Assembly: GCA_014871385.1 (NCBI GenBank)
Contig: CM026431.1
Location: 10,379,729-10,443,728 of the forward strand
Direction of reading: 5' to 3'
Length of the DNA: 64,000 nt
DNA from: Ceratodon purpureus
Lineage: Eukaryota; Streptophyta; Bryopsida; Pseudoditrichales; Ditrichaceae
The notes under the pieces were generated by a model, which saw only the letters and a list, made by a program, of their open reading frames with translations, was not told the origin of the DNA and searched no databases. The translations under genes were made by a program, and so were the position numbers. Below, piece after piece: positions 6,856-62,690 of this stretch (positions within the stretch are counted from its first letter, which is position 1; each line of letters begins with the position of its first letter).

Positions 6856-8470
6856 AGCGGAAGTCAAGAGTGCAAACAAGGAGTTACTTCAATTTACTCC
6901 ATTTCTAAGTCAAAAGTAGCTTGACTACTCATGGGATGTCCAATGTTAATGTTAATTACTCAGGAACAGTACAATGTTAATTCCCATGTGACAATTCTTT
7001 TGCCAATAGAAGAAAACTTTGTTACTCAATGAAGTGATTTTTAATGCAAAAGATGTGTGTATGTATGTTACTTACATGTCTTTGCAATCAAATTTAAAAA
7101 ATCATCACCAATTATTTTCAATAAAACATATTGTAAACTCATAAAATTTAGCTTTTAAAATCTACCAAAAATTAGAATTTTACTCTTTTGAAATTAGAAC
7201 TTGGTATGCTTGAGTGGGATTGGCTAAGAATTGAGTGATAATTTTGCAAGATAACATGGACCAATTGTATTGTATGTTATTTACAAATATTTGAATGCCT
7301 CAAAAGGGCATTATGTGTTTTTTTTGTAGGCAACTGTACAAATAGGCAACTAGCCCTTGGAATGCTATAGGTGAATTGTGTGGATCTTGTTTGAATTAAT
7401 TTTGCAATTTTCACTCTTAATTGTATTGGATGGGATGATTGACTTATTTTAGCATCTCCTCTAATTACTGTACTTCTATAATTCTACATTGTCTTTTTTA
7501 GTAAAAGCCCTATTTGGTTCTAATTTTTTATTTTTTTCCCATTTGCATGATTTATTAAAAAAGATTTAGGTACCTTAGAATACTTGGACACACAACCAAG
7601 ATTGTATTTGTCGTCAAATGCATCCAATGCTCTATCTAAATCCTTATCAATTCATAAACTTCATTATATTTTAGTTTTTTTAGGGAAGAGGAAAGCCATC
7701 ATTTTTACTATATTTCATAGGAGATTCAACTACATCATAAGAAAAAAATGAATTTTAATTAGCTGGTGATTCTCATGGTGAGCTATAGAAAGTTGTGAAC
7801 TTTGAAGAAATTTAAGTGTATTCTTTTTAAGCACATCCAAAGTCATTTCATCCTTGTCTTAGGTCTTCATCCATGATGTCTTGAAATTATAGTTATCATT
7901 GCCACTAGCATCAAATACATCTTCAGTCTCCCCTCTTTTGCAGTGTAATGATAGTTCTACCTATGTACGTACCTTTTGACTGCATTTATAGGAAGTTGCT
8001 GACCATTATTGCGCCTCTCGATTGCTAAATCAAACTATATAATCTTGCACTTGCACCTGCTAGCCTTTTCCATGGAGTGCAACTTGTAAATGTTTATGAA
8101 AATTCATTGACTTTTTCTGTTATTCATAGTCTTCGTTCATAGTCTTCATAATCTTGCCTAATTTGTAAATTCTTTGTGGCTGTATAGACCCTATAGCGAT
8201 ATAAATTTGATCAACTTTGCTTCGATCAAATAACTCTTTTGAAAGGTCTTTGTAATAATTTGATTGATGTTGCCACTACTACTCACCATATTCTTCATTT
8301 CCAAATAATCCTCTATTTGAATCATCTTGTTGTTCATATATGTAATCATTAATTTCTTCACTCACGCTTCATTTCTCTCATAACCTATGTTAAAGTTTGC
8401 ACTTTATAGAATTATTTGTAAAAGCATCCGGTACTTGACTTAGATACCATGAATTTTGCTTTGTAGTAAT
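6856..8470. other. AT-rich spacer without recognisable genes
   Basis: About 1.6 kb of AT-rich sequence. No exon, tRNA or clear terminal repeat was found. Parts of 7600-8460 have a more balanced, once-coding look on the minus strand, but I could not assign a family, so an old degraded repeat is only a suspicion. Confidence 0.4.
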
Positions 8471-8471
8471 T

Positions 8472-8697
8472 TTTTTTTTCCTTCAAATAGTTAGAAGACA
8501 TGGAATAACTTTGTAGTCTCACTATATTCAGTGTGTAAGAGCTTGGTGGTTTCTAAAGTCAAGGAAACTAGTTCCGCCATCATTCCATCCTTGAAAACTA
8601 GTTTCCTTGACTTTAGAAACCACCAAGCTCTCACACACTGAATATAGTGAGACTACAAAGTTATTCCATGTCTCCTAACTATTTGAAGTAAAAAAAT
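8472..8697 (-). repeat. Long near-perfect hairpin (about 100-bp arms, 22-base loop)
   Basis: The left arm at about 8472-8573 and right arm at about 8596-8697 are inverted copies with about three differences over 100 bp. In a minus-strand transcript the two internal differences (near 8495 and 8538) become G-U pairs, so that RNA folds almost perfectly. Such a structure fits a young small-RNA precursor or a recent inverted duplication. No terminal motif or target duplication typical of a MITE was seen. The strand is inferred from the wobble pairs. Confidence 0.6.
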
Positions 8698-8798
8698 AAA
8701 ATATTAAAATAAAGCAGAACTCATTATTTTATTTTTTAAAACACAAGGTGACTTTAACGATAACTCTAATAATTCTAATCAAAGTGCCATAATTTTGA

Positions 8799-32055: not shown

Positions 32056-32139
<84 letters not shown>
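32056..32139. repeat. (TA)n microsatellite, about 80 bp
   Basis: An essentially pure TA dinucleotide run of about 40 units. It can extrude as a cruciform and is likely polymorphic in length. Confidence 0.95.
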
Positions 32140-32399: not shown

Positions 32400-32778
32400 T
32401 TCACTATTACTAGGTTATTGATGTCAATCATGTTATCATCAACTTGTTAATGTCGATTAGCATGTTGTTGTAAATGGTCTCAGTCGTGTATCTTGTTGGT
32501 GTTAATTACTAAGCTATTGTCAGTAGTGTCAATCATACAATTTGTTGATGTCAATTAGTAGGCTGTTGTCAATGGTGTCAGCATATCTCGTTGGTGTGAA
32601 TTTCTAGGCTATTGTCAGTGGTGTCAATCATACAATTTGCTGATGTCAATTAGTAGGTTGTTGTCAGTGGTGTCAGTAGTACAATTTGATGACGTCAATT
32701 AGTAAGTTGTTCTCAATAATTTGTTGACGTCAATTAGTAAGTTGTTCTCAATCCGTCAGCTGTACAATTTGCTTATGT
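32400..32778. repeat. Degenerate minisatellite around TGTCAATTAGTAGG
   Basis: Imperfect units of about 45-60 bp carry TGTCAATTA(G/C)TA(G/A)G(C/T)TGTT(G/C)TCA and TCA(T/G)ACAATTTG(T/C)TGA. Later copies become more similar to each other and grade into the 110-bp satellite that follows. Confidence 0.7.
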
Positions 32779-33400
32779 CAATTACCTGGCTGCTGTTAGT
32801 CCGGCAACATGATGTGCAACATGATATGATTCCCTTCAATGTGCCATATGCGATGTGAAATTCACCGTCCAAAAAATCTCCGCTACCACCAATTAGCTGG
32901 CTGTTGTAAGCCTAGCAACATGATCTGCAACATGATATGATTCCCTTCAATGTGCCATATGCGATGTGAAATTCACCGTCCAAAAAATCTCCGCTACCAC
33001 CAATTAGCTGGCTGTTGTAAGCCTAGCAACATGATCTGCAACATGATATGATTCCCTTCAATGTGCCATATGCGATGTGAAATTCACCGTCCAAAAAATC
33101 TCCGCTACCACCAATTAGCTGGCTATTGTAAGTCTAACAACATGATCTACAACATGATATAATTCCCTTCAATGTGCCATATGCGATGTGAAATTCATCG
33201 TCCAAAAAATCCCTGCTACCACCAGTTTTATTTTGTCAATGTTGTTGTTTCGGCAATGTGATCTACTACATGATATGATTCCCTTCAATGTACCATATGC
33301 GATGTGAAATTCACCATCCAAACAATCTCCGTTACTACTAATTTTATTTTGTCAATCCTGCAATGCTATCCACAATGTAATATGTTTAGCTTTAGTGCCA
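32779..33400. repeat. 110-bp tandem satellite, five to six copies
   Basis: The unit has CAATTAGCTGGCTGTTGTA, AACATGATATGATTCCCTTC and CCGTCCAAAAAATCTCCGCT. Copies begin near 32780, 32890, 33000, 33110 and 33220, with a partial sixth. The second and third look identical; the outer ones are increasingly diverged, which suggests recent amplification from the middle. Confidence 0.85.
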
Positions 33401-33650
33401 TGTGAAATTTAATTTAACAAACAATCTAATAGAATCTACTCAAAATCCACATTAAAATATCATCTATTAATGCAATAATTTTTATTCAAAACTTAAACGC
33501 AATCAACAAAGATTTTCATATGTGGCCTTTTATTAACAAATACTATTTTTTCTTAAAATCAAAGAATACTAGTTAAAAATAAAATTAATTAAAAAAAATC
33601 ATCCATAAATGAAAACCATTTCCTTTTCCTTTAAAAGAAGAGATGCCATA

Positions 33651-33721
33651 CAATCAAAAAAAAAAAAAAACAAAAAAAAAAAAAAAAACAAAAAAACAAA
33701 AAAAAAAAAAAAAAAAAAAAA
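33651..33721. repeat. Poly(A) tract with scattered C
   Basis: About 70 bases of A interrupted by single C residues. Nothing upstream identifies it as the tail of a retroposed copy. Confidence 0.8.
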
Positions 33722-34273
33722 CATACGATTAATTTCATAATTCCCACCCTTCCTAATCGTGGAAAAATTGCCTCACCTCCAAAAATACAAAAATCTTCCA
33801 CCACATAATCATATCACCCAAGAACAATATAAACAAATTATCAAAAACCAAACTTCAGAAGACAAAAACTTCATATACCACAAAATATAGAAATCAAAAA
33901 CCTCATAAAATCACAACATTCAGAAATCAAAAACCTCAACTCCAAAAACCACAAAACACAAAAAATCACAAACTTCCCCAATTCCAACAAAACTCCGAGA
34001 ATGCACCAAAATCCAGTCCAAGCATGAGAAAGCCCGCGTGTCGGTAATCCCCAAACGGAAGCCACTTTGGAGCCTCCACATCCAAAAACACATTCAATCA
34101 CCGAATCCCTCGCCTGAAATCAAGCCCCTCTCACACGTCGACACAGAATCTGAGCAAGAATCCATGGACTCAAAATGAGCAGTAACTTAATTACAACTTA
34201 CACCAACATGAACAACATCCTCATCAGTAACTCAATTCTACTCCACCACTGTAGTCACAGACTCACTGTCTAG

Positions 34274-34720
34274 ACCACCATCTAGAAAAAAAAGACAACA
34301 CAAATTATACATCATAATGTGCCTGGACAAAGAGAGAGAGAGATTACGAGTCGGCCAGGTTTCCAGAACCACCATCTAGAAAAAAAGCAACTCAAATTAT
34401 ACATGATAATGAGCCTGGAGACTCAAGAGAGAGGTTATGAGTCCGGGTTTCCAGACCACCATCTAGAAACAAAAGGCAACACAAATTACACATGATAATG
34501 AGCCTAGACAAAGAGAGAGAGATTATGAGTCGGCCGGATTTTCAGTCCACCATCTAGAAGAAAAGGCAATATAAATTATACATGATAATGGGTGTCGACA
34601 CAGCGAGAGAGGTTATGAGCATGAGTTTCCAGAGCACCATCTAGAAGAAAAAGACAGCATAAACTATATATGATAATGGTGTAGAGAGGGAGGTTACAGT
34701 ATGAGTCCGGGTTTCCAGAG
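34274..34720. repeat. About 90-bp minisatellite, five copies
   Basis: CCACCATCTAGAA (last copy GCACCATCTAGAA) begins at about 34274, 34369, 34456, 34547 and 34634. Each unit continues with CAAATTATACATGATAATG, an AGAGAGAG run and a GAGTC(G/C)GG...TTTCCAGA end. The array ends about 1 kb before the aspartic protease start. Confidence 0.85.
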
Positions 34721-40489: not shown

Positions 40490-42440
40490 CAGCCTGTTGC
40501 GTATGATACTGTAGCCGGAACCCAACAGTGTTTGACTCAGTCTGTTGGCAAGCTAGGGTTCCAAGTCATTATTTAGCACCTTACAAACTGTTTCTGAACT
40601 CTATGATAGATTGCTGTTCTTACGCTCTCCTGATTGTTGCGCTGTTCGACTCACATCTTGCACTCTTTGATCAGCGCTTGCCGACTCTGCTTGGATCCCG
40701 TCTTTTATGAATTGTGCTTCCTTGTCCTTTTGAGAGAGCCTCACCTCAGTCCGGTTGCTTCGATCTTGCGTGCCCTATTCCCAGAGGTATTTTGCTCATC
40801 ACTCTCTTTCGAAACCTTGATCCTTGCTATGTCGTTAGGTTTTCCAGAATAGCTCGAGTCGTAGTCAGCGTTACCAGGCCTTAGGGATTTCTCACCTGTC
40901 GAGGAACATTCTTCTGGATTCTTCACCTGGGATGTGAACGTTAGTCGGTCTTACGCGCTTGGTGCCGGGTTTACGATTTCGCCATGTCGTAGTTGAGCTA
41001 GTCGCAAATCCCGGTTCAAAGTCGATCCAGTGTCGATTCATTTGCTATTCCTTCTCATTTACTCTCGAATCTTAGTAAATTCCAAATGATGTTTCGTCTT
41101 GCCAGGACTGCGTCTTATCATATTTCCATACGGCCAGAGAAGAAGGCGCTGTGAACTTGGCAGCAGGGAAAATGTCACAAGCGGAGGCGAGTGATATCAC
41201 CTCAAGCTGTAGTGCCGACGCCGGAGGTACTACACCTGCGACAGAGGTGTCCTCCAGCGTTGCAGGTGATGAATTTGTCACAGCATCATCAGCATCGATA
41301 TTGAATTCTTCACTAGGTGGCGAGTATATGACAGCGGGCATGAGCGAGGAGCAGATACAGGCTGCGATAGAGACATCGGAGGTGCAAGGGTGGTCCGAAC
41401 TGAAACAGAGATCTGATGATGGTGCAGCGCCATCTGAGCACGCCCAAGAGAACCGAGTCATTTGGGAGCAGTTGAAGGAACAAGATCCTCGTGTCTTCAA
41501 GGGTTTTGGTGAAGGTAGGATTTTGAAGCTGGGACAAAGGATTGCGGAGGGAGGCCAAGCACACATCTACGAAGCCACAATACATGATCTCAAAGGTGAT
41601 TTGCCAGACTATAATTGTGTGGCGAAGGTGTTCAAAATGGAAGGCTTTTCATTGGCATACCTCCAACGCGAATGGCCCCTTGCCATTAAGAGACCCTTTA
41701 ATGAGAGGTCCAAGTTAGAAGAGAAACGTAATTTTGTAGAGGGTGGAGTTGTCTTTGGTGAAATGTTGCTTTATTGTGGTTTGATACACTATGGAACATT
41801 CCTTGAGAATGGAAGGTTTGCTTTTGTGATGAAGAGATATTGGGGTGATTTACGAACACTCATCAATCTCAAGATCAAGGATAGCAATTATCAAGGGCCA
41901 CCCTTCTCACATTTGGATACAATGCGGATCATGTATGAGATTTCTGTTGGTGTAGAGGAGCTCCATGACAGAGGTGTCTTGCATAGAGATCTTAAAGCTG
42001 CCAATGTTCTTGTTACATATTGGTCAGAAAGAAGTATCATAATGGATGCTTGTGTGGCAGATTATGAGAGTGCAATGTTAGTTCAAGGAACTGGATTTTG
42101 GAGAGCACCCGAGGTGTTGGAGCAATTGTTGAAGAGGCCATGTGACTGGAATGTAAATATATGGACTGAGAAGGTGGATGTATATAGTTTTGCAATGACT
42201 TGTTATGAGGTTTTAACAGGTCATGTACCATTTGATGGATATGGGAAGAGCGATTGGAAGAGAGTTATTGATGGTGAACGACCTCATCTACCAGACTATA
42301 TAGATGTTAGAACACGAGAATTAGTAGAAAGATGTTGGCACAAAGAGCCTGCAGAGAGGCCTACTTTTGGATACATCACAGGTGAGTTGCAGTATCTTCG
42401 ATTATGTGCCGAGGTGTACAAACATGGAGAGTATGCATGA
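40490..42440 (+). repeat. Copy A of an inverted segmental duplication
   Basis: This block, including about 680 bp upstream of the kinase start, matches the minus strand of 60726-62690. Upstream landmarks shared in order are AGCCGG(A/G)ACC, GTCTGT(T/C)GG(C/T)AAGC, TCTTGCACTC, CCGACTCTGCTTGGATCC, and GGCG followed by GTGAACTTGG just before the ATG. The downstream limit seems to be near the kinase stop codon. Confidence 0.75.
41172..42440 (+). CDS. Intronless protein kinase with altered DFG motif (copy A)
   Basis: Single exon, 422 residues from MSQAEAS. This ATG aligns with the start of the paralogue at 61973; the frame upstream offers only GTG. The N-terminal 100 residues are acidic, with MSEEQIQAAIETSEVQGWSE, conserved in the paralogue. 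The kinase domain has a variant glycine loop (IAEGGQAHIYEA), Lys in CVAKVFK, HRDLKAANV, APEVL, DVYSFAMTCYEVLTG and RCWHKEPAERPTF, giving a TKL-like character. DFG is replaced by DYE in VADYESAM: the metal-binding Asp stays, the Gly is Glu. A signalling role is inferred, and activity is uncertain because of the DYE change. Confidence 0.85.
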   Translation: MSQAEASDITSSCSADAGGTTPATEVSSSVAGDEFVTASSASILNSSLGGEYMTAGMSEEQIQAAIETSEVQGWSELKQRSDDGAAPSEHAQENRVIWEQLKEQDPRVFKGFGEGRILKLGQRIAEGGQAHIYEATIHDLKGDLPDYNCVAKVFKMEGFSLAYLQREWPLAIKRPFNERSKLEEKRNFVEGGVVFGEMLLYCGLIHYGTFLENGRFAFVMKRYWGDLRTLINLKIKDSNYQGPPFSHLDTMRIMYEISVGVEELHDRGVLHRDLKAANVLVTYWSERSIIMDACVADYESAMLVQGTGFWRAPEVLEQLLKRPCDWNVNIWTEKVDVYSFAMTCYEVLTGHVPFDGYGKSDWKRVIDGERPHLPDYIDVRTRELVERCWHKEPAERPTFGYITGELQYLRLCAEVYKHGEYA

Positions 42441-43330
42441 ATTTTGACAGCCCAGAGTTGATTTCCTGATGGCACATGGCGAGACGACTGCAGAGCGATG
42501 GTGTGGAGGATGCACGTTTACAAGAAAGTCTCTTCACAGCACCTCAGGACTGGATGGCGCATGTTCCGACTTCTCTCTCCGAGGCCTGATGTTGGGTTGT
42601 GGTTTGGATGTCCAGCTCCCACCTTGTGAATTTTTTGCAGAGCAGTATGGCCAGTCATGTATGTTTAGCAATGAACTGGATTCAAAACTATGCTATGGTG
42701 CTTTGAATCACACTGAATAGTGGATAGTTTGTTGTAGCTTGACAAGATTAGAGCTGTTAATTATTAAGAATCTCTTCCTTCTGCCTGTACGCAGAGAATG
42801 GAACCTTGCTGGACAAGTGTTGGGAATAATACATGTCCTACATCTTCTTTGGCTCAAAGTAAGCATGACATGTGTGTGTGATTGCCGAGGCTTGCTCATT
42901 GATAGCTCACTAGTTAGACCCTCTATTTCTACCAAAGCACAGACTCAGCACCTGTTTTGCTGAAGAACTGTTTACTCTACAACAAAACAGTAGATTAAAT
43001 TGATACATTTATCATCTCTCACTAGTGTTGCAAAGCATCTAAAGCTAAATCTAGCAGAGACAAGCATCCAACTAGTTTACAACAGCACGAACATGCATCC
43101 CGAACTCAATATTCCTTCAAAGAGAACATTTCAGATGAGTCATTTCTACAGAACACAGCGGTCCTCATTTCAGATTATCAAGATTTATTATCAAAAAGAT
43201 TAGAGACATGCAACAGTTGTGAGCGCTTTCTAGAAGAGCTGTAATCAACCAAGATTAATGAAAGAAAGCAGTGACTCTGCAAAATGATCTTGACAGAAAA
43301 ACACCTCGGAAACTCTGTTTGCTGGTGATG
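42441..43330. other. Spacer downstream of kinase copy A
   Basis: No convincing gene. A frame at 42469-42720 lies in the likely kinase 3' UTR and has no family features. Confidence 0.4.
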
Positions 43331-48502: not shown

Positions 48503-50964
48503 TCCAAAACCTCTCCTACAACCCCATCTCTACAACCTCAAAACGAAACTCTTCAACCTGAAACACCATCCACTCCTTCAAACTAAGCAGTAAGAATCAC
48601 TTCTAGCACCAAACAAACCTGAAGATGATATCGATCGAACCTAGAGATATCGATACAAATGAGCCCACTTGGACCGAATGCGGTGAACTCGAACTTCGGA
48701 GCTAGCGCTAGTCTTGGTTGTGTTATCGATGTCGATCAGAAAGAGATGGTTTTTTTGTGAGAACTAGAGACGGATTCTTGAGCTTATAAGGAGAGTGATT
48801 CGGGGAGGATTGTCAAAGAGGAGGACTACCAGTGCAAGTGCAGGTGGGCAGGGAAGCCGTGTTGAGCTGGACTGGAAGCTCGGCCGCCCTCGACTGGTCG
48901 TCGCCGCGGCTTTCCTCGTGGACAGTGGACTGGAGGTCCGAGGTGTGAAGATTCGGCATCGATGTGCATATTTTAATGGTATTTTTGTTGTCATGAATGC
49001 CAGTGCCGATCTGCATTTTGGTTTTTTGGACTTTTGTGTTTGCTTTTGGAGTTAAATTATGTGTTTGTTGTGGTTGCAGGGTGCCAGATGGGGAGGCTCC
49101 TGGAGGCGGCGACTGGGCTTTCATCAATTGGTTAAACTGTTTGTTCCGGAAATCAGGACTTTGCATTCAGCCATCTGGTTGAAACCGTCTTAGAAGATAA
49201 TAGTTTTATTGATTTTGTTATCTGATTTGTGTCCTCCACTTGACACGTTTCGGAATTTAATCAGATCGTTATCTTCAAGTTGACAACTGGGTGTTTGTAA
49301 GTATTGTTTTATATTGATCAAGCTTGATTGGAGTATGGTTTGGAGAAGAGTTTTTTTAACAGGTGTTGACTAGATTTTTGTATGAATATGCTGTTGTTTT
49401 ATAGTTGAGTTTGTATCAAGATTTTATCAATGGTTTATTTGATGTATGAGGATCCTAAAGAAAGTTGTGTTGAGGGATGGCACTCCATCTGTAGATAACA
49501 TGCACTTCAGAAGCATGACAACACATGGTTGTGGGAGCCATTGAAGTCTAAAGATTTTGCATGTGAGAAGACTTTAAGCTTTAAATTGATTTTAAATCAT
49601 GGATGGTATTATAAATCAACCAAGTAATATTGTGAAGGCAAAAGGAATTTTATTGTTATAGATTAACTAATTGGACCAATACCTTTTTTATAAATCCAAA
49701 ATTACCATTATTTCTAAAATGCCACATACATATTGCCACATACATAATGCCACATGCAAGGCATGAAAATCTTGACCATGAAATATTGCATAAATTTATT
49801 GTAGATGATGTAGATCAAATTTGGAATTGTGAAGCCTCATAGAGTGGAAAGTCATGATATTTTATTCCTTTTAAAAATAAAATAAAATTTTATTATAAAT
49901 TTATTTAACATTATTTCAAGAGCACACTCATGAAAATATGATAGGTAATATTGTATCCAAAAGTTGTCTTGTAATATCAAAGATGGATCAAATTTTATTT
50001 TAAAATAAAAAATCATTATTAAATATTTTGATACATAAAATCCTTCTTGAATTATCATAACATTTTAAAATAAATTTAAAAATTACCACAAGAATTTGAC
50101 TTGATTTTGGATATAATTCTATGAATTTATTGAAGTCAAACAAAGGATAAAAGAGGAACAACTCTTTTAAAAGTTTTAAAAAAATAAAATTAAAAAAAGC
50201 ACTATTATAGAAACATGTATGCATTGGTAGATCTTAAAGTAGAATTAGAGAAAAAAATTACAACTAATCAAGAATTATATAGAATAAAACAACGTAACCA
50301 AATTCTATGTATGGTCGAGAGTCAATTAATTTTGTGTCATAAGCAAAATTATAAAAGATAATTTCACATTGCAAACAACACTACACTGAAATGTACAGTA
50401 CAGTACAGTGGTCAGTAAAGGACTTTGGAGGGATTCCTGAGTACTTCTCAAGAAAGTACACATGTAACATCAGTAGATCACTTGCAGTGAGCTTCCTGGC
50501 TCTTTCAAAGAATGGAATATGTCGGTTTCTTTTGTAGCTAAGATTGCTGAAAATGGTGACCCATGGGTTGATGATTCAGCATCGGAATCTGTGAAACCTA
50601 TATTGTTCATTGACTAGTATGAAAGTCTTGGATGGTCAAGGAATCAATGATGATGACTTTCATGCTCTCCTATTTCTTGTCAAATTCTCACAGTTGTATG
50701 TTTTTTTCTCTGAAGTTATTATTTCTTCCGGTTTTCTCTTCCTCGACAGTGAAAGTTTCTTTCCTTGTAGAAAAACAGAAGGGACAATATGAGAACTGTA
50801 CAACCTATGTCTCACTAGAGAGTAGACACCTTGACAAGGGTGACATTTGAGACTTGCAATTTCTGATAACCGGGCAACGGTCAATTGAGGTGCAAGTGTG
50901 CGAAACCCACATGGTTTTCTACTCCAGTCAATGCCAGTCATGGTAGTATTATATGATTTCTTTC
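48503..50964. other. Promoter of the U-box gene and AT-rich spacer
   Basis: The first 300-400 bases are the U-box gene's leader and promoter. From about 49.2 kb the sequence is AT-rich with no gene. GTACAGTACAGTACAGT at about 50394-50410 is a short GTACA tandem run; a similar ACAGTACAGTAC lies near 46024. Confidence 0.45.
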
Positions 50965-50968
50965 TTAA

Positions 50969-52044
50969 CCCCTAAAGCATTTGGCTATAAAATCCCAAAT
51001 TCTGCCTCAAATCTGCATTGTTTTAGTTCAAGGTAGAATTATGAAAATTTAAACGTATTTAGAAGAATCAAACCGTAGGATCTAGTACCTAACTTGTACA
51101 TGTATGTGTACACAAAATTTTAGACTGTAACTCCTCACCGTTTGGAAGATCATAAGGTTTGAACTTGAGTGAAAAGTTTTTTTTGGTCCTGCCCGGCAGG
51201 GACAGCCACACTTCGGAGAGCAAAACAGCCAATTTTTTGAGATCTTGTGGTTGGAGGCTCTTCAGTTTTGGATTCTAAAGTGAGTTGGGAGTATGCTCAA
51301 AAAAATTGAAGAGAATACAACACAGAGAAGCATTGGAAAACCACATTTCTAGTGACGGGAGTCAAATGAAATGCATTTACACTGGCTCTTTTTCCACACT
51401 ACAAATGCCTAAGAAGATCATCTATTTTTTGAAATCCGAACGGTGTATACGTGCATTTCTATGGAAAAGAAATTGTGGAGGAAAAAAATCTAAGAAATAA
51501 ACAAATCCGAAATAGATATGAATTTTATAGTGGTTTAGGAGGAGATAATGGTGAAGGAAAAATGGGTGATGAAGGTGACCCAATCACTGTAGATCTGTTT
51601 GACAGTTTTTATAAAACTTGGAACTTTGACTGAATATATCTCAAGATCCGTACGGTCAAAATTAACAAAATTTGGTAAGTAGACTAATTTGATGGCTCTG
51701 AACAAGATCCTACGGCTGGATTTTTCAAAATCAAGTTTTAAAAAAAATTGTAAAACGATTTCAGAAAGGGTCATTTGGAAGTCACTGTAGATTGTCATAG
51801 ATTTGGTACACCACTTGCATCAGCCACAAACCTGCCCGAGCTGCCCTGAATTGAATTTTGATCTTTAAACACGATTTATTTCTTACCTACGGGCCTGATG
51901 AAAGTGAAATTTGGTCTTGCTAGAAAGATATGACAATTTCCCATGTTGTGCCAAAGTTACAGCCACATCGGGTAAAATTTGACTCATAGGGAGCCTGACC
52001 GGACCCTAAATCATACCAAAACTGTTGAGTTGATGCTTTAGGGG
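50969..52044. mobile_element. Second TTAA-bounded non-autonomous DNA transposon, piggyBac-like
   Basis: A 1076-bp block flanked by TTAA (50965-50968, 52045-52048). The ends are inverted: CCCCTAAAGCATTTGG on the left and, read inward from the right, CCCCTAAAGCATCAAC. The first 12 bases are perfect. The 7-base terminus CCCCTAA is shared with the element at 5901-6851, but the interiors differ. No transposase frame. Internally an ATCCNACGGTT-like motif recurs at about 51071 (inverted), 51434, 51645 and 51706. Confidence 0.7.
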
Positions 52045-52193
52045 TTAAGTATGCACAACTTGCATTGTATACGAACAAAATACGTGCAAGAGCTGTGTCC
52101 TGGAAGACGACTCCACTCCTCCATGGAATATGAACATGGTACAGTGCAGGAGTTGTATCCTGGAAAGTGACTTCTCTGATTACATTTTATGAA

Positions 52194-52530
52194 TAAGGTA
52201 GCGGCACCCATTCCCGTGGGTATAAGAGAGATTGCACAGTTGTAGAATAAGGAAATAATTTGCAACCAGATAGGAAAGAAGGCGAATACAAAACAAATAG
52301 GATCGTGAGAAAAAAACCATGAATATCAAAGGATTTGAGTACAATCTGGTCGCTCAAACAGGAAAGTGGTGAGGCACTCCTAACCGTGTCAAAGTGGTGC
52401 CACTCCTGTGAGCACATGACATACATTACACGATACCGGATTGGTGTGCCCACTCAAAGTGAACCGGATTGAGGTGCCGCTGTAGTGCACGGCAGTGGGC
52501 ACACCCACGGGAGTGGATGCCGCTACCTTA
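52194..52530. mobile_element. 337-bp MITE with about 27-bp inverted ends, TA-flanked
   Basis: Left end TAAGGTAGCGGCACCCATTC and inverted right end TAAGGTAGCGGCATCCACTC, both continuing CCGTGGGT, give about 27 bp with two differences. If TA is the duplicated target, as in Tc1/mariner (Stowaway-like) elements, the element proper is 52196-52528. No coding capacity. Confidence 0.7.
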
Positions 52531-52533
52531 GAC

Positions 52534-53376
52534 ATTTTAAAGTTGCAAGAAGAAGAACTCTAGTCCCTTTTGAGGGGACCAGCTCTCCCACATCTGATAA
52601 CAGTTATAATTGAAAAAAACTATAAAACTTTGCAAATTCTAAGAGGAAAATCTATTGCCCAAGAAAGAGTAACAAAGCAAAATTTATGATATGTTGGCCC
52701 ATTGTTAGGGCGTAATTAATATCATGAAATAATATGAAGTTTTTTGGTGAAATAAACTCGTCAAACGAGTAAGTAAGAGTTTTCCAAAAAAATAATCCAT
52801 CCATTATTTTCTAGGTAGTTGAAAACATATCTTTTTTGTAGAAAATTGTAGATTTTGATACTAGAGTATATAGACAAAAAACAAAACAAAATGCACTTTA
52901 GGCATTTAATCATAATGTCATAGACAAACTCATCACTATAGAGCTCTGTTTCTTGTGGTACATATTGGATTTTATATATCTACCAATAAGTTTTTTGACT
53001 TTTCCCTTTCTAATAATAAAGGTACATGAAGCACTAATTTTTATATCCAGAATTCACTAAAATTGGATTGAATATAAATAATATCCATTAGGATTGCAAA
53101 GAAATCTATTATCACTAGGTTCCATGTATAAAATCTTAAATTTAAGACACTTATAAAATTCATTTCTATAGACTATCATAAAACAACATAGAAGACAAAA
53201 ATTGTACATCCATTCTATTAAGGAATTTATTCTTAATCAAATTGGTTTTATATTCCAAGTAATTTACATTATAACAAAGTTACTAAATTTCTAAGTTCGT
53301 TCTCATTTGATATAAAAATTTCTATGAAATAGAAAAAAGTTCATGTTTAAATGTGCATTTTGTAAATAGATCGACG
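52534..53376. other. AT-rich spacer between two MITEs
   Basis: Strongly AT-rich; no gene, RNA or clear repeat seen. Confidence 0.45.
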
Positions 53377-53379
53377 TTA

Positions 53380-53632
53380 GAGCATCCCTAGTAGTACTGT
53401 AAACCTGGAAGCCTGTAATCATGAGAACGTGGTTCTCCCAAACATGAGTGTCTTTCCGAAGCAAAACATTCCAAAACCGTTTACAGGTTTATAGGTTTGC
53501 CTCAAAAAACCTTCTAAAACCAGGTTTCAACCTATAAATTAGAGGCTTACAGGCTTGGCCTAAACCGCAATTCACGTCTTTCCACTTCTTTCCGCTTTCA
53601 GGTTTACAGTATAAGCCTTAATGGGGATGCTC
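53380..53632. mobile_element. 253-bp Tourist-like MITE with TTA target duplication (PIF/Harbinger)
   Basis: TTA flanks both ends (53377-53379, 53633-53635). The left end reads GAGCATCCCTAGTAGTACTG and the inverted right end GAGCATCCCCATTAAGGCTT; both run on to CTGTAAACCTG(G/A)AAGC, so inverted similarity covers about 40 bp. A three-base T(A/T)A duplication with GAGCATC ends fits PIF/Harbinger MITEs. Confidence 0.75.
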
Positions 53633-53635
53633 TTA

Positions 53636-54366
53636 GAGATCAAGTACATCAGGAAAGTCTGATGGAGTAAATTTTATATAAATTCTGTAAAAACTTACTG
53701 TTGAATATAACAAGCTAGCCAATAATTGTAAATCTTTTGTCAACTTAATTAGTATCCTCTGTACTATAAAAATAACATTAATTATAAGTACAATTTTGAA
53801 TGTAAAATTTATATAAATTTTATATAAATTGCATATAAAATTTGCATGAAATAAATCTTAAAATTGCACATGAATCCACTTCTTTGTTAAATTTTGGAGG
53901 TGGAATATTTAATATTTGTAGATTTCGGACTGAATGCTCATGTAGCTACAAGGTAGATTTAGAGTTGGAGACATGAGAGAATGTGGTAGATTTAGAATCA
54001 GTGAACTGTAAACATATGGTAGATTTTTTGCCCATAAAACACATACAAATGTACATTCCATATTCATCCAATGTAACAATGACGCAGATGTATAATAGAT
54101 CAAATGTAACAATTGCATACATTTAAAAGGTAAAAAGTACATGCTAATAAGGAGAAGTTATATCTAAATGAGCAGGATTCTTCAAATCGGATCCTTTGTG
54201 CCCTTGCTGCGGCTATATGCGCCTGTACAAACGGATTGTAAAGCTACAGATCAATAAAGCTACACAACAATATTAAGTTCCAGATCAACAATCTAAAGCA
54301 GAATAATATAACCTGGAGACCTTCACCTAAAATTAAAAAATTCTATAGATTGCATCCACTGATTAC
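53636..54366. other. AT-rich flank of the chimeric gene fragment
   Basis: AT-rich sequence with repeated TTTATATAAATTTTATAT-type stretches near 53.8 kb. On the minus strand this is where the V-ATPase H gene should continue, but I find no further H-subunit exon. Confidence 0.45.
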
Positions 54367-55058
54367 CTTTTCTTTAGTAGAGCTCTTCACAACGTCCACA
54401 AGACGTGGTACCACTCTCGCTGTTGAAAACGCTTCCACGGCACCATCGTGAAACGATAGAAGCCATATGCACAGCGTTGCCTCATATAGCAGCTGCAACA
54501 CGAACAGGCATCACATAGGTTTATATAAATTGCACCCTTAAGCGAAAAGAAACTGAAATATGCTGTAACTAAACTTGCTATTTGACATGAACTCTTCAAC
54601 AAGATCAACCATGAATGAAGCAAGAAAAGGCAAAATACAAAGTCGACTATACTAGCATGAATATATTGCTGATTGGAGCCATGGGTAATTATGGGAGCCA
54701 GAAGTTTGGTGCCATCGGCCTTGATGAATATAGCCCGCACTTTAGTGCTACGCAAAAGTGTTGCCAAAGAACTAACAGCCGTTGGAATTCCCCGAGTTGG
54801 ATGGGCCGGACTTCTCATCTGCACGCAGACCAAAACATGTTACACACCCTAGAGTCTTCAATATTTTTGGAAATGGAAAAAAAAATTCAAAACATAACAC
54901 CGATAACATCACCGGTACGAGGGAAACATGCATAAAAACTAAAAATAAAAAGGCTCTACGTGAGAGATAAGCCAATCCACAACAGCACGAAGAACCTCAT
55001 TGAATGAATCAACTTTCTTCTGCGGAGCTGAAGGATCCTCGGGGTCTATTTCCTCGTA
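54367..55058 (-). pseudogene. V-ATPase subunit H gene fragment, three internal exons
   Basis: Three exons match the middle of V-type proton ATPase subunit H, the regulator joining V1 to V0: 54960-55058 (SFNEVLRAVVDWLISH), 54657-54818 (HPTRGIPTAVSSLATLLRST, KADGTKLLAPIITHGSNQQY) and 54367-54492 (LLYEATLCIWLLSF, RVVPRLVDVVKSSTKEK). Introns are retained, so this is a genomic, not retroposed, copy. The N-terminal third and the C-terminal half are missing. The donor after the second exon reads AT/GCTAGT instead of a GT donor, so it would need a weak GC-AG splice. It follows the importin-11 fragment in the same orientation and phase. I call it a fragment; expression as part of a chimeric transcript is possible. 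Confidence 0.8.
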
Positions 55059-55176
55059 CTGTCGGAATAGTATACAGAGGTCGTACGATTTGGAAGGTAC
55101 TTCAGCATGAGCAACGTGCATCTATCTTTCCATGTTAAACAAGTCGAATAGACAAAGTAGTAGTCCAATAAAGCAC

Positions 55177-56571
55177 CTGAATGAGAGAATCGATAACAGG
55201 GAGGGTACACAACATTCCCCTCTCTTTCACATTCCCAACAACAATCTCAAAGATTTTCACCACACCACTTGCATGTAACCTCAGAAAGTCAGCTCCTCCA
55301 AGGAGGATGTAACTCTCAATGATTGACATTGCAGCCTACAAGCCCAAAATACTTCAGAATATGATCAAATACAAACGGAAGTCGCTCAACAATGCTAATC
55401 TAGTACTTTATCAGCAACACCCGAACTAAAATCTTCCAACTTCAGAAACTCAGATGAATAATCGTTGCTATTTAAATCTATGATAAAAAAGAGGCTAAGT
55501 AGAAGCAATAAGATAAACAGTACGTATGAAGGACAGGAACGCGTTAATATGTCAGCTCACCTGGAGATGTTCGAAATTAAGCTCCATCACAGACACAAGA
55601 TGAGGAAAGAGGTTCATAAGTTGAGGCACCATAAGAGGAGCATTTCTCAATGTAGTTTGCCACAGCTGCAAATCCAAGTGACAGTGATCAGTCTCCAAAA
55701 CACATTTGGTTCTACCTTCGAAAAAGGGAGAAAATTCACATGTCAACTTTCCTCGGAACATCACATTTCAGTGGAAGAAATCCAGATACTTTCTCCAAGG
55801 CTACAGGATAGCACGGATAATCATGGGCCCAACTAAAATAATGATTGGTACATCCAGAATCCAAATGAAGCATGCTGCTGAACACAAGCTAACATACAGC
55901 AAGAGAATAAATCACTAACACAACAAACAGTCAAAAATGAGATCAACCACTACAGATAGCACATCATCAACAAAACAAGTCTGTAAATGGAAACAAGACC
56001 CACAAAGTGGTAGAATTACAATACCTGCATACCATCCTCCAACATATTAAGCTCATCAGGCTGATTTACATCTGTACTGTACTGCAAAATTGGAAAAAGA
56101 ATCTCATAGCTTATTGGAGAGCGAGGGCCAAGTGCAATCAAAAGACGCTGGAGTGCAAGCATCACTTGTATCTGCAACAAGCTTTGTCCTTCGGAGTCTT
56201 GCCAAACCTACAAATTCCACGACGGAAAACATTAACATCTATCGATCATGCTCAGACGCATGAATTGATTGATACACCTGATGAAAGACAATATACACCA
56301 GAATGTGGGCAAGCTGAAACGACACACAGAAAACACATATACAGCAATGCTTCTTAACACTTGAGTTTTTGGACCTTTCAGTGCAAAAAGGAGATGGTAC
56401 ATAGAACTATGGGCATTAGTTTAGGTAAAATAACAGCAATCACTGACTTGGACCATGGTGCACAACGAAATGCCTTACCCGAGGTAGAAATGCTAGAATC
56501 TTCTAAACACATGGAACAATCTTCTCTCCTAGACGATCAATTATAAGGGACACAAGGTTGAAAATTTGAAG
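55177..56571 (-). pseudogene. Importin-11-like (karyopherin beta) gene fragment, four exons
   Basis: Four phase-0 exons match the C-terminal HEAT region of importin-11: 56479-56571 (LQIFNLVSLIIDRLGEKIV), 56025-56207 (VWQDSEGQSLLQIQVMLALQ, ALGPRSPISYEILFPILQY), 55561-55665 (LWQTTLRNAPLMVPQLMNLF) and 55177-55335 (IIESYILLGGADFLRLHASG, GMLCTLPVIDSLIQ). Importin-11 carries ubiquitin-conjugating enzymes and other cargo into the nucleus. The first exon contains an in-frame TAG after VPCV where the family has a charged residue. The roughly 600 N-terminal residues and the last exons are absent. After the final exon the next acceptor leads straight into V-ATPase H sequence. A doubtful extra exon may end near 56798. 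Confidence 0.8.
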
Positions 56572-56849
56572 CTGCAAGAGGGAAACATCACCGCTTAAAA
56601 ACAACTACTAGTTATTAATATCCAATTTCAGCCGACTATAATCCACGAAACCAATCCACGAATCCACTTCACAAATCTAATTGCAGTCTTCGGTGATAAT
56701 AATTCCTTTAGAAATGGTATTCGGGTACGTAAAAGAAATGAGACATTACAATTGCAACGAAATTAGGGATTGCGAAGTGATGCTTCAAACAACCAGCCAA
56801 TATTCAACATCAAACACTAACCTCGACTGTCCAGCAGCATCCAAATACT

Positions 56850-57443
56850 TCATAGAATATGCGATAGAATGCAAAAACTGGTTCCGTGTCATCACAAGTG
56901 TCTCATTGAGCTTTGCCATCATCGAGCCGAAGCACCAGTGAATGAACCTCACTGAACATGAGTTTCTGATCACCTTCAATCCAAACTTCATGCATTGTGA
57001 CAATCAAAAATGCGACACTCCTCGGAACCCGCATTGAATTTGAGCTCATCGGAATGGAAACACTGAAAACCTGACCAAGACCTAAATTCAAAATTCGTGA
57101 CTTTCGGCCATGTAACCATGGCCAAAGCTTTAAAATTTTGAACACTAGAGAAGAAGAGAAACTTACCACAGTAGAGAACCCCCGCCAGACAGTAAGCTTG
57201 AATCCGAGAGTGAGAAACAAACGCAGAGGTGTGCGCCGCCACAATGCTTCTGAGCTCTTGAACTTCCGAGCTCTTGTACAATGCTTCTCCAACATTCTCA
57301 GAAACCCATAAAAACCCACGAAGCAATCCAACTCCCTCAACCACTACACTCCAACAACAACATCTATAACGCACAACAAGCACCCAAAATCCCTCAATAC
57401 CACCCAACAAACACACAGAAACCCTAACTCCCCCGAAGTTCAT
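56850..57443 (-). other. Possible leader/first exon of the chimeric locus
   Basis: On the minus strand a frame running from 57443 ends at a strong GTAAGTTTC donor near 57171, and an AACCCTAA motif lies near its start. The protein in either candidate frame resembles nothing I know. It could be the promoter and first exon that would drive the fragments downstream, or unrelated sequence. Confidence 0.3.
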
Positions 57444-57940
57444 TGGCTAATGGTTCATACACTTACAGATTTTCAGATTTTGATGATACATAAAGTTGAT
57501 ATAATTTAATATAAAATTCATATCATACTAATGTTAAAATTATATAAGTTTAATACTAAATATTTTTATCAATATTGTATAAAATTAACACCAAGTATTT
57601 TATCACTATAAATTTCATATGTTTTTTTTTCAACAAAGAATTAATATCCAATTTTTTAGTTATAAATTTCATAGTATGTAATGGATGTTATAAATTTTAT
57701 ATAAAATGTATGTCCGAGAATTAATACAGTTTTCATATTAAAAAAAATTACGTAAATTCTATGTGACAGGAACCACCAAAGAACAGGAAATCAATGTCAA
57801 GTTCACATTGATTATTTTTTAGTCAATTTATTATGAAATTTATATAAAATTTTACAAGGCAGACTTTCCTGATGTAGTGATGATCGCGGGCAGACAACCG
57901 GTCGAGGCCAATTCCAAATACTTAAAAAGGGATTCATACC
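57444..57940. other. AT-rich flank upstream of UTP11
   Basis: AT-rich, with TTATATAAAATT-type stretches like those near 53.8 kb on the other side of the chimeric locus. No gene seen. Confidence 0.4.
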
Positions 57941-58024
57941 CGTTCCAGGGTATAAATGTTCATACCCAGTTCAGGGTATCGGAGATCGGGTATGTTAACG
58001 TAAACGCGGAGGGTTTAGGGTTTA
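57938..58024 (+). promoter_or_regulatory. UTP11 core promoter: TATA box, paired ATACCC/GGGTAT inverted repeats, telo-box
   Basis: ATACCC-6 bases-GGGTAT occurs twice (about 57937 and 57963), and the first GGGTAT overlaps TATAAAT at 57951, about 208 bases before the ATG. Another GGGTAT follows near 57988. GGGTTTAGGGTTTA at 58011-58024 is a double telo-box in reverse orientation, typical of plant ribosome-biogenesis genes. Confidence 0.6.
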
Positions 58025-58158
58025 GTGGCGATGCAGGAAGCAGACTTATCGAAGTCTCGTTTTCGCAGCGATTGTGCGAGCTCTGCGAGGGCGAGGCAAT
58101 TGACAAGACGACGGTGGTGAGTCGCCTCACAGGTTGAGCTTCAGGTCCAGCAGGAGCC

Positions 58159-58839: not shown

Positions 58840-60725
58840 TTGAGTGGTTATGCTTTAGGTTGTAGAAATCTAGTGTAGTCATGACTAGTGATAGGTCGTT
58901 TTAGAAAAGACCTAATTGCAGTTGAATTAATTGCGCATGTCACGAAAGACTGTGGGAGCTGGTATCTGTGGTAAACTGCAGCAACCATGCTGCAGGTTAG
59001 GTTAGTCATGCAGGCTCTGTTTCAGTAAAAGGACTTCGAGATACCAGGGTGACAATCATTGAATATCAAATAGGTAAGAATTTTGTAGCAATATTAGGGT
59101 TCTCGGAAGCTTTGACATCTTGTTGGAAGGCATGGAACAAGTCGTTGATGATGAAGTGAGCTTTAGGAGCTCGCCGATCGGGACAGTGAGTTAATATATG
59201 GAGCTTGTGCCAAATAAGCCGAAATTTTCAAGTGGTTGAAAGAACGTTGGAAAGGATGCGGGGTTGGTCGAGTACGCAATCGAGAAGTATGTGGTCGTCT
59301 CGAAGCTTTTGCCCAAAATCTCGGTCTCAATTCTACAGGTGCCATTGATTTATCCTGCTCGTGGAGCTATGTACGAGTTGAAGCTGCAGCAGTCAAGGAT
59401 CACAGAACCGTGTTCTGGAAACTTTTTATTCGAATGCAAAGGGTATGAATCAGATCATCGTGGCCAGCAAAGAGGCCTTAAGCGAAGAAGAGGTCATGGA
59501 GGGATGTAAGGGACTGAGTTCTTGAACTATGTTCTTAGTGGAAAACTTGGGTTGCGGAGAGGAGGAAGGCAGAAGTTCATGTAGACGCCAATTTGCTGTA
59601 TTAATTCTTGACCAAGGCGGCAAGGAATGAAGAGTTTTCTGGATACCATATTTGAGAATATTAGCATTTTCCGCTACAGAACAGGTCTTTTGCTCTCTTC
59701 TTAAGTATCTCATACATGGGATACTAGTGAAAACAAAAGTACCATACAGTTTACAAACATGTGGGGTGGCGTTTGTCTTTGCGGAACATGATCCTACATG
59801 TTGATACAATTGTCAAGGTTCTGATGTACTTCTCTGCTCTTTTCACACCTGTCTTGCTCTAGGCAAGGTCCTGCAGATTGTCGAGGTGTGTCTATGTCTA
59901 CTTGGATTGCTTCCATCTCAGGGATGTTCCAGAAGATTTTTGTAGCATTCTGTCATCTTGCTCGGTAGTAGGAGGTGCACAACGCCGAGGTTCATTTTAC
60001 TCTTCCTGAGGTTTTCGCATTGCAGTCTTCAGCGCCGAGCTCCTCCTGGCATAAATGGACTTGACCCAAGGTTCAGCCAGGAATACCGAGAGGCGGATCA
60101 AGGACATTGTCGGATATCTTGGACTTAAAATTGACATTTATTAAAACAAATTCTAAACCCTAGGAATGGCTTCACATCCTTTCTGCATCAGATATTCAGA
60201 GTAAATGAAAAGCATCTGTGTATTTTATAAGGTCCATAAAGTCTTTTTCAAGTTTCTATTTAGTAAGAACAAGCTTCATGTAGGAATGCATAATGTTCAT
60301 ATGATAATGCCTTCTTCAATAATTGTTATAAAGATATACAATCAAAGGATAAATCCAGCATTCAATTTCAAATTTAAATAACCCAACTTCAAAATTGAAG
60401 TGACCATTACAGATTAATTATGATTGAAACTTGAATATATTCCAACCAATCTTATTGTAAAATGTTGAAAGGAGGTTGTTAAACTTATACCAGAAGAATG
60501 TTAGTTTACAAGATTTTAAAATATTACTATGCTAAGATAGAATTTAGAGTTCTTTTGAAAAATTTCAACTTAGTGTTTGATAAAAGCTTTGGAAAAAGGG
60601 GATACATTGTGACTGAAACTGTGCCATCCAGCTGTGAAGAGACTTTCTTGTACATCTGCATCCTCTACACCATCGCTCTAGAGTCATCTCACTATACGCC
60701 ATCAGCGAAACATCTCTGTCAAAAT
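58840..60725. other. Spacer between UTP11 and kinase copy B
   Basis: UTP11 3' UTR, then sequence with no recognised gene. Frames around 59.2-59.5 kb show no splice context or family match. From 60.1 kb it is AT-rich. Confidence 0.4.
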
Positions 60726-61973
60726 TCATGCACTTTCCATGTTTGCATATCTAGGCCCAAACCAAAGATGCCACAACTCAGTTTCCATGTCTTCAAAAGT
60801 AGGCCTCTTTGAAGGCTCTTTGTGCCAACATCTTTCTACTATTTTTCGTACTCTGAGATCTATGTAGTCTGGTAAATGAGGTCTTTCACCGTTAATAACT
60901 CTCTTCCAATCGCTCCTCCCATATCCATCAAATGGTATATGGCCTGTCAAAATTTCATAACAAGTCATAGCAAAACTATATACATCCACCTTCTCAGTCC
61001 ATATGCCTACATTCCGGTCACATGGCCTCTTTTGTAACTCCTCCAACACCTCGGGTGCTCTCCAAAATCCAGTTCCTTGAACTAACATTGCACTCTCAAA
61101 ATCTGCCACAACTGCATAATTTGTGTCTGAGTCACCATTTTTTTGCGCCAATGGAAGAAGAACATTGGCAGCTTTAAGATCTCTATGCAAGACACCTCTT
61201 TCATGCAACTCCTTTACACCACGAGCAATACAAAGCATGATCCGTATTGCATCATAATGTGAGAAGGGTGGCCCTTGATAGTTGCTCTCCTTCATCTTGA
61301 GATTGATGAGTGTTCGTAAATCACCCCAATATCTCTTCATCACAAAAGCAAACCTTCCATCCTCCAAGAAGGTTCCATTGAATATCAAACAACAAAAACC
61401 CAAAATTTCACCAAAGACAACTCCACCCTTATTAAATCTCTTATTTAAGGGTTTCTTAGTGGCAAGGGGCCATTGGCGTTGGAGGTCTGCCAATGAAAAG
61501 CCTTCCAATTTGAACACCTTCACCACACAATCATAGTCTGGCAAATCACCCTTGAGATAGTGTGTTGTGGCTTCGTAGATGTGTGCTTGGCCTCCCTCCG
61601 CAATCCTTCGCCCCAGCTTCAAAATCCCGTCTTCATCAAAATCTCTGAACGATCCAGGATATTGTTTCTTCAACTGCTCCCAAATGACTCGGTTCTCTTG
61701 GGCATGACCAGATGGCGCTGCACCATCGTCAGATCTCTGTTTCAGTTCGGACCACCCTTGCACCTTCGATGTCTCTATCGAAGCCTGTATCTCCTCCTCG
61801 CTCATGCCCGCAGTCATACACTCGCCACCTTGTGAAGAAGTCAATATCGATGCTGATATTGTGACGCATTCATCATGTGCAACGCTGGAGGACGCCACTT
61901 GCACATGTTTAGTATCTGACCCTGCGTGACCAGCATAGCATGCGGTAAAAGCTCTCGTCAGTGCTTGCCCCAT
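60726..61973 (-). CDS. Intronless protein kinase with altered DFG motif (copy B)
   Basis: Single exon, 415 residues, paralogue of the kinase at 41172-42440 in opposite orientation. Kinase landmarks: IAEGGQAHIYEA, Lys in CVVKVFK, HRDLKAANV, VADFESAM in place of DFG (Gly to Glu as in copy A), APEVL, DVYSFAMTCYEILTG and RCWHKEPSKRPTF. The start MGQALTR has Gly at position 2 and could be N-myristoylated, with a nearby Cys for palmitoylation; copy A starts MSQ and lacks this, so the two may differ in membrane attachment. The segment before the activation loop is longer here (LPLAQKNGDSDTNYA). Role inferred as signalling. Confidence 0.85.
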   Translation of the reverse strand: MGQALTRAFTACYAGHAGSDTKHVQVASSSVAHDECVTISASILTSSQGGECMTAGMSEEEIQASIETSKVQGWSELKQRSDDGAAPSGHAQENRVIWEQLKKQYPGSFRDFDEDGILKLGRRIAEGGQAHIYEATTHYLKGDLPDYDCVVKVFKLEGFSLADLQRQWPLATKKPLNKRFNKGGVVFGEILGFCCLIFNGTFLEDGRFAFVMKRYWGDLRTLINLKMKESNYQGPPFSHYDAIRIMLCIARGVKELHERGVLHRDLKAANVLLPLAQKNGDSDTNYAVVADFESAMLVQGTGFWRAPEVLEELQKRPCDRNVGIWTEKVDVYSFAMTCYEILTGHIPFDGYGRSDWKRVINGERPHLPDYIDLRVRKIVERCWHKEPSKRPTFEDMETELWHLWFGPRYANMESA

Positions 61974-62690
61974 TTATTCCCAAGTTCACGACGCCTTCTC
62001 AGTCCTCTGGGCAATGGAAATTACACCTGGGCGGATAGATCAGGCTGTGCAGACCCCTGCAACTTCAGAATTAGAACGCCATATGAAGTTAGTTGCAAAA
62101 TTCAAGAGTGTAAATGTGAAAGAGAAGAAGTAATAGATTGAAATTGTTGTTGCATCAGAAGCGTCTTGCTAAATCATCACATGCCAAACCCGCAAATCTC
62201 TCAGCAAGAGCGGACGACTAGGTTCCTTCACAAACGTATTGCATAACCCAAATGGGGAAACCAGTCGACGAATTCACAATGAATAATAACAAGTATGAAG
62301 GTCTGGTGACGCAAGCTGTCTATACACTTCGAAAGCCCACGAACAAAGCAGAGAAGAAACTGCGAAGGAGAGTAGTGAGCGTGCAACCTCGGAAACGAAC
62401 ACACTCAGGATCGGACCAACTGAACCGAGATGAAGTTCCTCCGACAGTAGATCTAACAACGAGTGGAATAATAAACGGCGAGATAGGATCCAAGCAGAGT
62501 CGGTATGTGTTGTGGAGTGCAAGACGTGCATATGATGAATACCGTTACTACAAGGAGCGTGAGAGCACAGCGCGGAGTCTGCCGATTAGAAACCTGAGAG
62601 CTGCAAAGTTCGGAGTCGTAACCCTCGCTTACCGACAGACTTGGGCAAACAGTGCAGGTCCCGGCTTCTTCACGCAACATAACATGCTTC
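60726..62690 (-). repeat. Copy B of the inverted segmental duplication
   Basis: Minus-strand counterpart of 40490-42440. The shared upstream landmarks lie near 62670 (AGCCGGGACC), 62640 (GTCTGTCGGTAAGC), 62525 (TCTTGCACTC) and 62495 (CCGACTCTGCTTGGATCC). Order and approximate distance to the kinase ATG match copy A, so the duplication took the promoter and leader with the gene. The 187-codon plus-strand frame at 62252-62815 lies antisense to this region. Confidence 0.75.

Follow-up and report, generated by a model that had tools for sequence, protein, structure and literature searches.

Exons of two genes on one strand

The window, by which is meant the whole 64,000-nucleotide stretch of DNA that was analysed, carries seven exons on its minus strand between positions 56571 and 54367. 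Four exons of importin-11 lie upstream, followed by three exons of V-ATPase subunit H (VHA-H), and the introns are retained. This arrangement had been described in an earlier note on the same DNA and is borne out exon for exon at the following positions:

56571-56479, minus strand: importin-11 exon A, 93 nt; codon 23 of its 31 is an in-frame TAG
56207-56025, minus strand: importin-11 exon B, 183 nt; placed by Pfam, PDB alignment and tblastn
55665-55561, minus strand: importin-11 exon C, 105 nt; placed by Pfam, PDB alignment and tblastn
55335-55177, minus strand: importin-11 exon D, 159 nt; placed by Pfam and tblastn
55176-55059, minus strand: junction intron, 118 bp, shorter than the other five; importin-11 donor and VHA-H acceptor
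55058-54960, minus strand: VHA-H exon E, 99 nt; placed by Pfam and PDB alignment
54818-54657, minus strand: VHA-H exon F, 162 nt, with a GC rather than a GT donor; placed by Pfam, PDB alignment and tblastn
54492-54367, minus strand: VHA-H exon G, 126 nt, with a GT donor; placed by Pfam, PDB alignment and tblastn

All seven exon lengths are divisible by three, and each of the six introns is in phase 0. Because both exons that flank the junction are phase 0, the phase is compatible between 55177 and 55058, as the earlier note had said. Intron lengths, from A-B through F-G, are 271, 359, 225, 118, 141 and 164 bp; five of the six introns have GT-AG borders, and the F-G intron is GC-AG. Across the 309 codons of the joined exons there is a single stop, which falls within exon A at codon 23. 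No exon following exon G was found, despite its GT donor. The capture breakpoint should fall within the junction intron, which combines a donor from one gene with an acceptor from the other. A processed retrogene, which would lack introns, does not fit, since introns are present between all seven exons.

The joined importin exons match the Pfam family TPR_IPO11 (E=1.3e-32, profile positions 2-140 of 371), and the joined VHA-H exons match V-ATPase_H_N (E=1.5e-23, profile positions 138-257 of 314). The VHA-H part aligns over 118 residues without gaps to residues 151-268 of chain 7uw9_P (452 residues; E=1.6e-37), a plant V-type proton ATPase subunit H. For the importin part, the alignment is collinear but gapped and covers residues 616-748 of KAP120 (6fvb_A, 1031 residues; E=1.2e-6). 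Judged by sequence, both pieces are internal fragments that lack the ends of either protein. In the three minus-strand frames of 48601-58100, translated with X for stops, a Pfam scan found no exons beyond the known ones; its listed matches fell on exons B, C and G and on one unplaced importin stretch, such that it recovered at most four of the seven known exons and short exons could escape it. With plant proteins as queries, tblastn across the whole window recovered five of the seven (B, C, D, F and G) and gave eight further matches, each at E=0.22 or worse, among which there was no additional importin-11 or VHA-H exon. Relatives were also sought with one scan of a prokaryote collection, which yielded 34 pattern matches, and one of a viral collection, which yielded 27; none of these was confirmed.

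Inverted repeats and repeat-rich borders

The exons lie inside a larger unit, the parts of which are as follows:

53645-53661, plus strand: left terminal inverted repeat (TIR) core, 17 bp, perfect
53662-54130, no strand assigned: left subterminal region, AT-rich, with a TTATATAAA-type motif repeated in both orientations
56572-57450, minus strand: gene-like sequence, with the importin acceptor and probably some importin intron; placed by composition and sequence
57451-57859, no strand assigned: right subterminal region, AT-rich, with the same TTATATAAA-type motif
57860-57876, minus strand: right TIR core, 17 bp, perfect; reads CACTA when 57877-57879 are added

The two TIR cores enclose an interval of ~4.2 kb that holds both gene pieces. 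The inverted match extends to ~40 bp, with 53645-53684 matching 57876-57837 at 86% over 42 columns (BLASTN). A perfect inverted match of at least 17 bp was seen in none of 1000 dinucleotide shuffles of 600 bp around each end, the longest being 14 bp. No second copy of the element ends lies within the window. The earlier note had suggested that the flanks be checked for long inverted repeats and for Helitron 3' ends; inverted repeats are present, outside 54367-56571, where they had gone unnoticed, and a strict scan limited to perfect stems found no Helitron 3' end. The terminal sequences are CACTACATC at the right and AAGTACATC at the left, meaning that the terminus is CACTA at the right and AAGTA at the left rather than CACTA at both.

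Motif counts and a repeat search both find subterminal repeats in the two orientations, as in CACTA elements. TTATATAAA occurs ten times in the 912 bp of the terminal regions (six copies left, four right), compared with two copies in the 3.32 kb of cargo and one in the other 59.8 kb; 300 shuffles gave at most three copies in both ends combined. Four overlapping motifs, this one among them, were counted; they were selected after the repeats had been seen, and all four are enriched in the element ends. For the shorter TATATAAA, there are ten copies in the ends, six in the rest and at most five in shuffles. The inner borders at 54130 and 57450, on which these motif counts depend, were placed by eye from a composition table. 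Composition also differs between the parts: the ends are rich in AT but show little skew, and the cargo between them is gene-like in composition, its plus strand being A-rich. From 54200 onward, the AT skew of 22 windows ranges from 0.01 to 0.54 and exceeds 0.1 in 18 of them. An A-rich plus strand is expected for intron-bearing genes that are read on the minus strand. The CpG value of the cargo is 0.64, as compared with 0.64-0.96 for five neighboring genes and 0.49 for an intergenic stretch, values that are uninformative on methylation.

A transposon as the probable vehicle

What carried the two gene pieces to this site? They are most likely the cargo of a non-autonomous TIR transposon, because of the TIRs, the subterminal repeats, the composition and the outcome of the transposase searches: Pfam gave no transposase match at E up to 0.05 in the three minus-strand frames of 48601-58100, and none in the three plus-strand frames of 53301-58100. 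The locus is, very probably, a non-autonomous Pack-TYPE TIR DNA transposon of ~4.2 kb (53645-57876) that carries fragments of importin-11 and VHA-H. Capture at the DNA level by a transposon, one of the routes that the earlier note had proposed, is well supported, with introns kept and with TIRs and subterminal repeats flanking the cargo on both sides. The importin-11 and VHA-H fragments would have been captured as genomic DNA, and the package would have been mobilised by a transposase from a full-length relative. The element would have inserted upstream of a gene that, by eye, is UTP11-like; the ATG of this gene is 282 bp from the right TIR.

CACTA is the likeliest superfamily, with a chance of about one in two of being correct. 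Support for it comes from the right terminus and from the subterminal repeats, but the left end and the target site weaken it. If the ends are those of a CACTA element, the element would be a few bases longer than 53645-57876. At the target site, the 3-bp CACTA register gives ATC versus ATG, agreeing at two of three positions (at least as good at random, 0.168), and the 5-bp CACTA register agrees at one of five (0.772). The 8-bp hAT register agrees at one of eight (0.905). The symmetric 9-bp register expected of a MULE agrees at five of nine (0.057), and a seven-of-nine match appears solely in an asymmetric register, in which the ends are cut unequally. The Pack-MULE named in the earlier note was right in kind, as a TIR element, but the 9-bp target duplication that would mark it as a MULE is unclear. 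The left flank is disturbed, since a miniature element (MITE) adjoins the left TIR. This MITE, at 53380-53632, is 253 bp long and has GAGCATCCC inverted ends and TTA target duplications, the right one of which ends 9 bp outside the left TIR; it is PIF/Harbinger-like.

Other origins for the same arrangement can be weighed against these borders. Plant Helitrons typically carry several host fragments in one orientation, introns included, and a rolling-circle element of this type could have captured both fragments in the same orientation; the multiple, intron-bearing fragments here fit that habit. However, the TIRs argue against a Helitron, which the earlier note had put forward as a vehicle, and a strict scan (perfect stem of 6-12 bp with at least half G+C, and CTRR plus T within 3-14 bases; degenerate ends would be missed) found no Helitron 3' end on either strand of 53300-54400 or 57300-58100. 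A Helitron origin is therefore highly improbable. Some rearrangement or repair event independent of any transposon could instead have fused the gene pieces, with the inverted repeats belonging to other, nested elements. The lack of a clean target-site duplication would fit such a history, as would the small transposon (the MITE at 53380-53632) next to the left end. Nevertheless, TIRs, subterminal motif arrays and a change in composition coincide at both borders of the cargo, and an origin of this kind is unlikely; the specific version raised in the earlier note, repair with filler DNA, leaves the inverted repeats unexplained. The chimera could also be an assembly artefact, produced by a false join of two loci between 55177 and 55058. 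The join sits within a single TIR-bounded unit with matching ends, which speaks against an artefact, and such an origin is very improbable.

A possible third fragment

The gene-like composition continues upstream of the importin exons, over 56.57-57.45 kb, where a leader-like TTAGGGTTT motif stands at the start of the minus strand. Besides the importin acceptor and probably some importin intron, 56572-57450 perhaps holds a third captured fragment; this may correspond to another gene's promoter and first exon. No Pfam family reached its cut-off in this stretch (best E=0.0027, 18.8 bits versus a cut-off of 22), and three reading-frame stretches from it had no match in the PDB up to E=5. If a promoter and first exon were indeed captured at 56.57-57.45 kb, this would matter for transcription.

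Coding potential of the fusion

The earlier note had suggested that the locus, if transcribed, would encode a HEAT/ARM-type fusion protein. The in-frame stop within exon A and the GC donor that follows exon F make such a gene or protein doubtful; the fusion probably does not amount to a functional gene. These two defects, together with the presence of internal protein parts only, also suggest that the cargo is decaying without a coding role; it is probably not under coding constraint. A functional chimeric gene, which would be compatible with a transposon origin, might nonetheless be driven by a captured leader near 57.4 kb, with translation beginning downstream of the exon A stop or with exon A left out by splicing, and would yield a HEAT/ARM fusion protein. 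A leader-like sequence is indeed present on the same strand, and the exons, all phase 0 and all multiples of three in length, could be skipped with the frame preserved. Exon skipping or a later start could thus still leave an open frame, and a chimeric transcript is conceivable. Set against the exon A stop, the GC donor and the absence of the ends of either protein, these properties leave a functional chimera very unlikely. That the transposon put together three pieces in working order (a captured promoter or leader and the cores of importin-11 and VHA-H), and that the locus is transcribed and spliced to yield either a new HEAT/ARM fusion or small RNAs that target the parent genes, is likewise quite unlikely.

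Comparison with known gene-capturing elements

Read as a transposon with host cargo, the element belongs to a known kind, namely Pack-TYPE-like gene capture. A close precedent is Tgm-Express1, a CACTA element of soybean. Tgm-Express1 is an inverted-repeat element of ~5.7 kb that holds parts of five unrelated genes, exons and introns alike; the splice sites of this cargo are functional, and it is spliced into many chimeric transcripts (PMC1947982). The moss element resembles it in that exons and introns of unrelated genes lie within an inverted-repeat element, but has two identified fragments, perhaps three, rather than five. Its CACTA left end and target duplication are also not clean. The Tpn1 family of Japanese morning glory, also CACTA, is described as mostly non-autonomous, with 28-bp TIRs, and as keeping its TIRs and subterminal repetitive regions around an interior of captured host genic sequence; 3-bp target-site duplications flank all except one of its 339 copies, with a mismatch in 14 (PMC5105172). 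TIRs, subterminal repeats and a host genic interior are shared with Tpn1, whereas the element described here is a single copy within the window and lacks a clean target-site duplication.

Pack-TYPE elements of Arabidopsis, rice and maize, which include Pack-CACTA and Pack-MULE, are reported to carry coding DNA from one or several loci, with examples in all main plant TIR transposon superfamilies; the CACTA target duplication is there given as 5 bp (PMC8903248). In a mechanism proposed for capture, two insertions lie near each other, their terminal deletions complement one another, and the host DNA between them becomes enclosed in a hybrid element (PMC13317346). What is shared with Pack-TYPE elements is a TIR element with host coding DNA inside and without a transposase; the difference is again that the target-site duplication is not clean.

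What would such an element mean for the host genome? The locus offers a clear snapshot of exon shuffling by an apparent cut-and-paste element, a route of shuffling already known in plants. Since the join lies inside an intron, splice sites and phase are preserved. For annotators, a well-spliced model of an "importin/V-ATPase fusion gene" at this position would be transposon cargo.

Neighborhood of the element

Other genes in the window, named by eye, include PEPC, a SelO-like gene and the UTP11-like gene. A protein-kinase-like gene (also by eye) is present as an inverted duplicate, with 41122-42540 matching 60631-62021 at 82% over 1433 columns, and its two copies flank the transposon, one on each side. 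Rfam gave no match at gathering score in the window. A near-perfect hairpin occupies 8470-8700, with 98 base pairs and a 22-nt loop (-156.6 kcal/mol, z -28, 0 of 200 shuffles); it looks like a young inverted duplication, either a foldback element or a newly arisen hairpin for small RNAs. Arrays of tandem repeats, their periods being ~49/95, 111 and 88/178 bp, span 32406-34719, and a run of 41 TA copies lies near them at 32057-32138. Finally, a perfect 17-bp inverted repeat (50964-50980 and 52033-52049) with arms ~1.05 kb apart is possibly another small TIR element.
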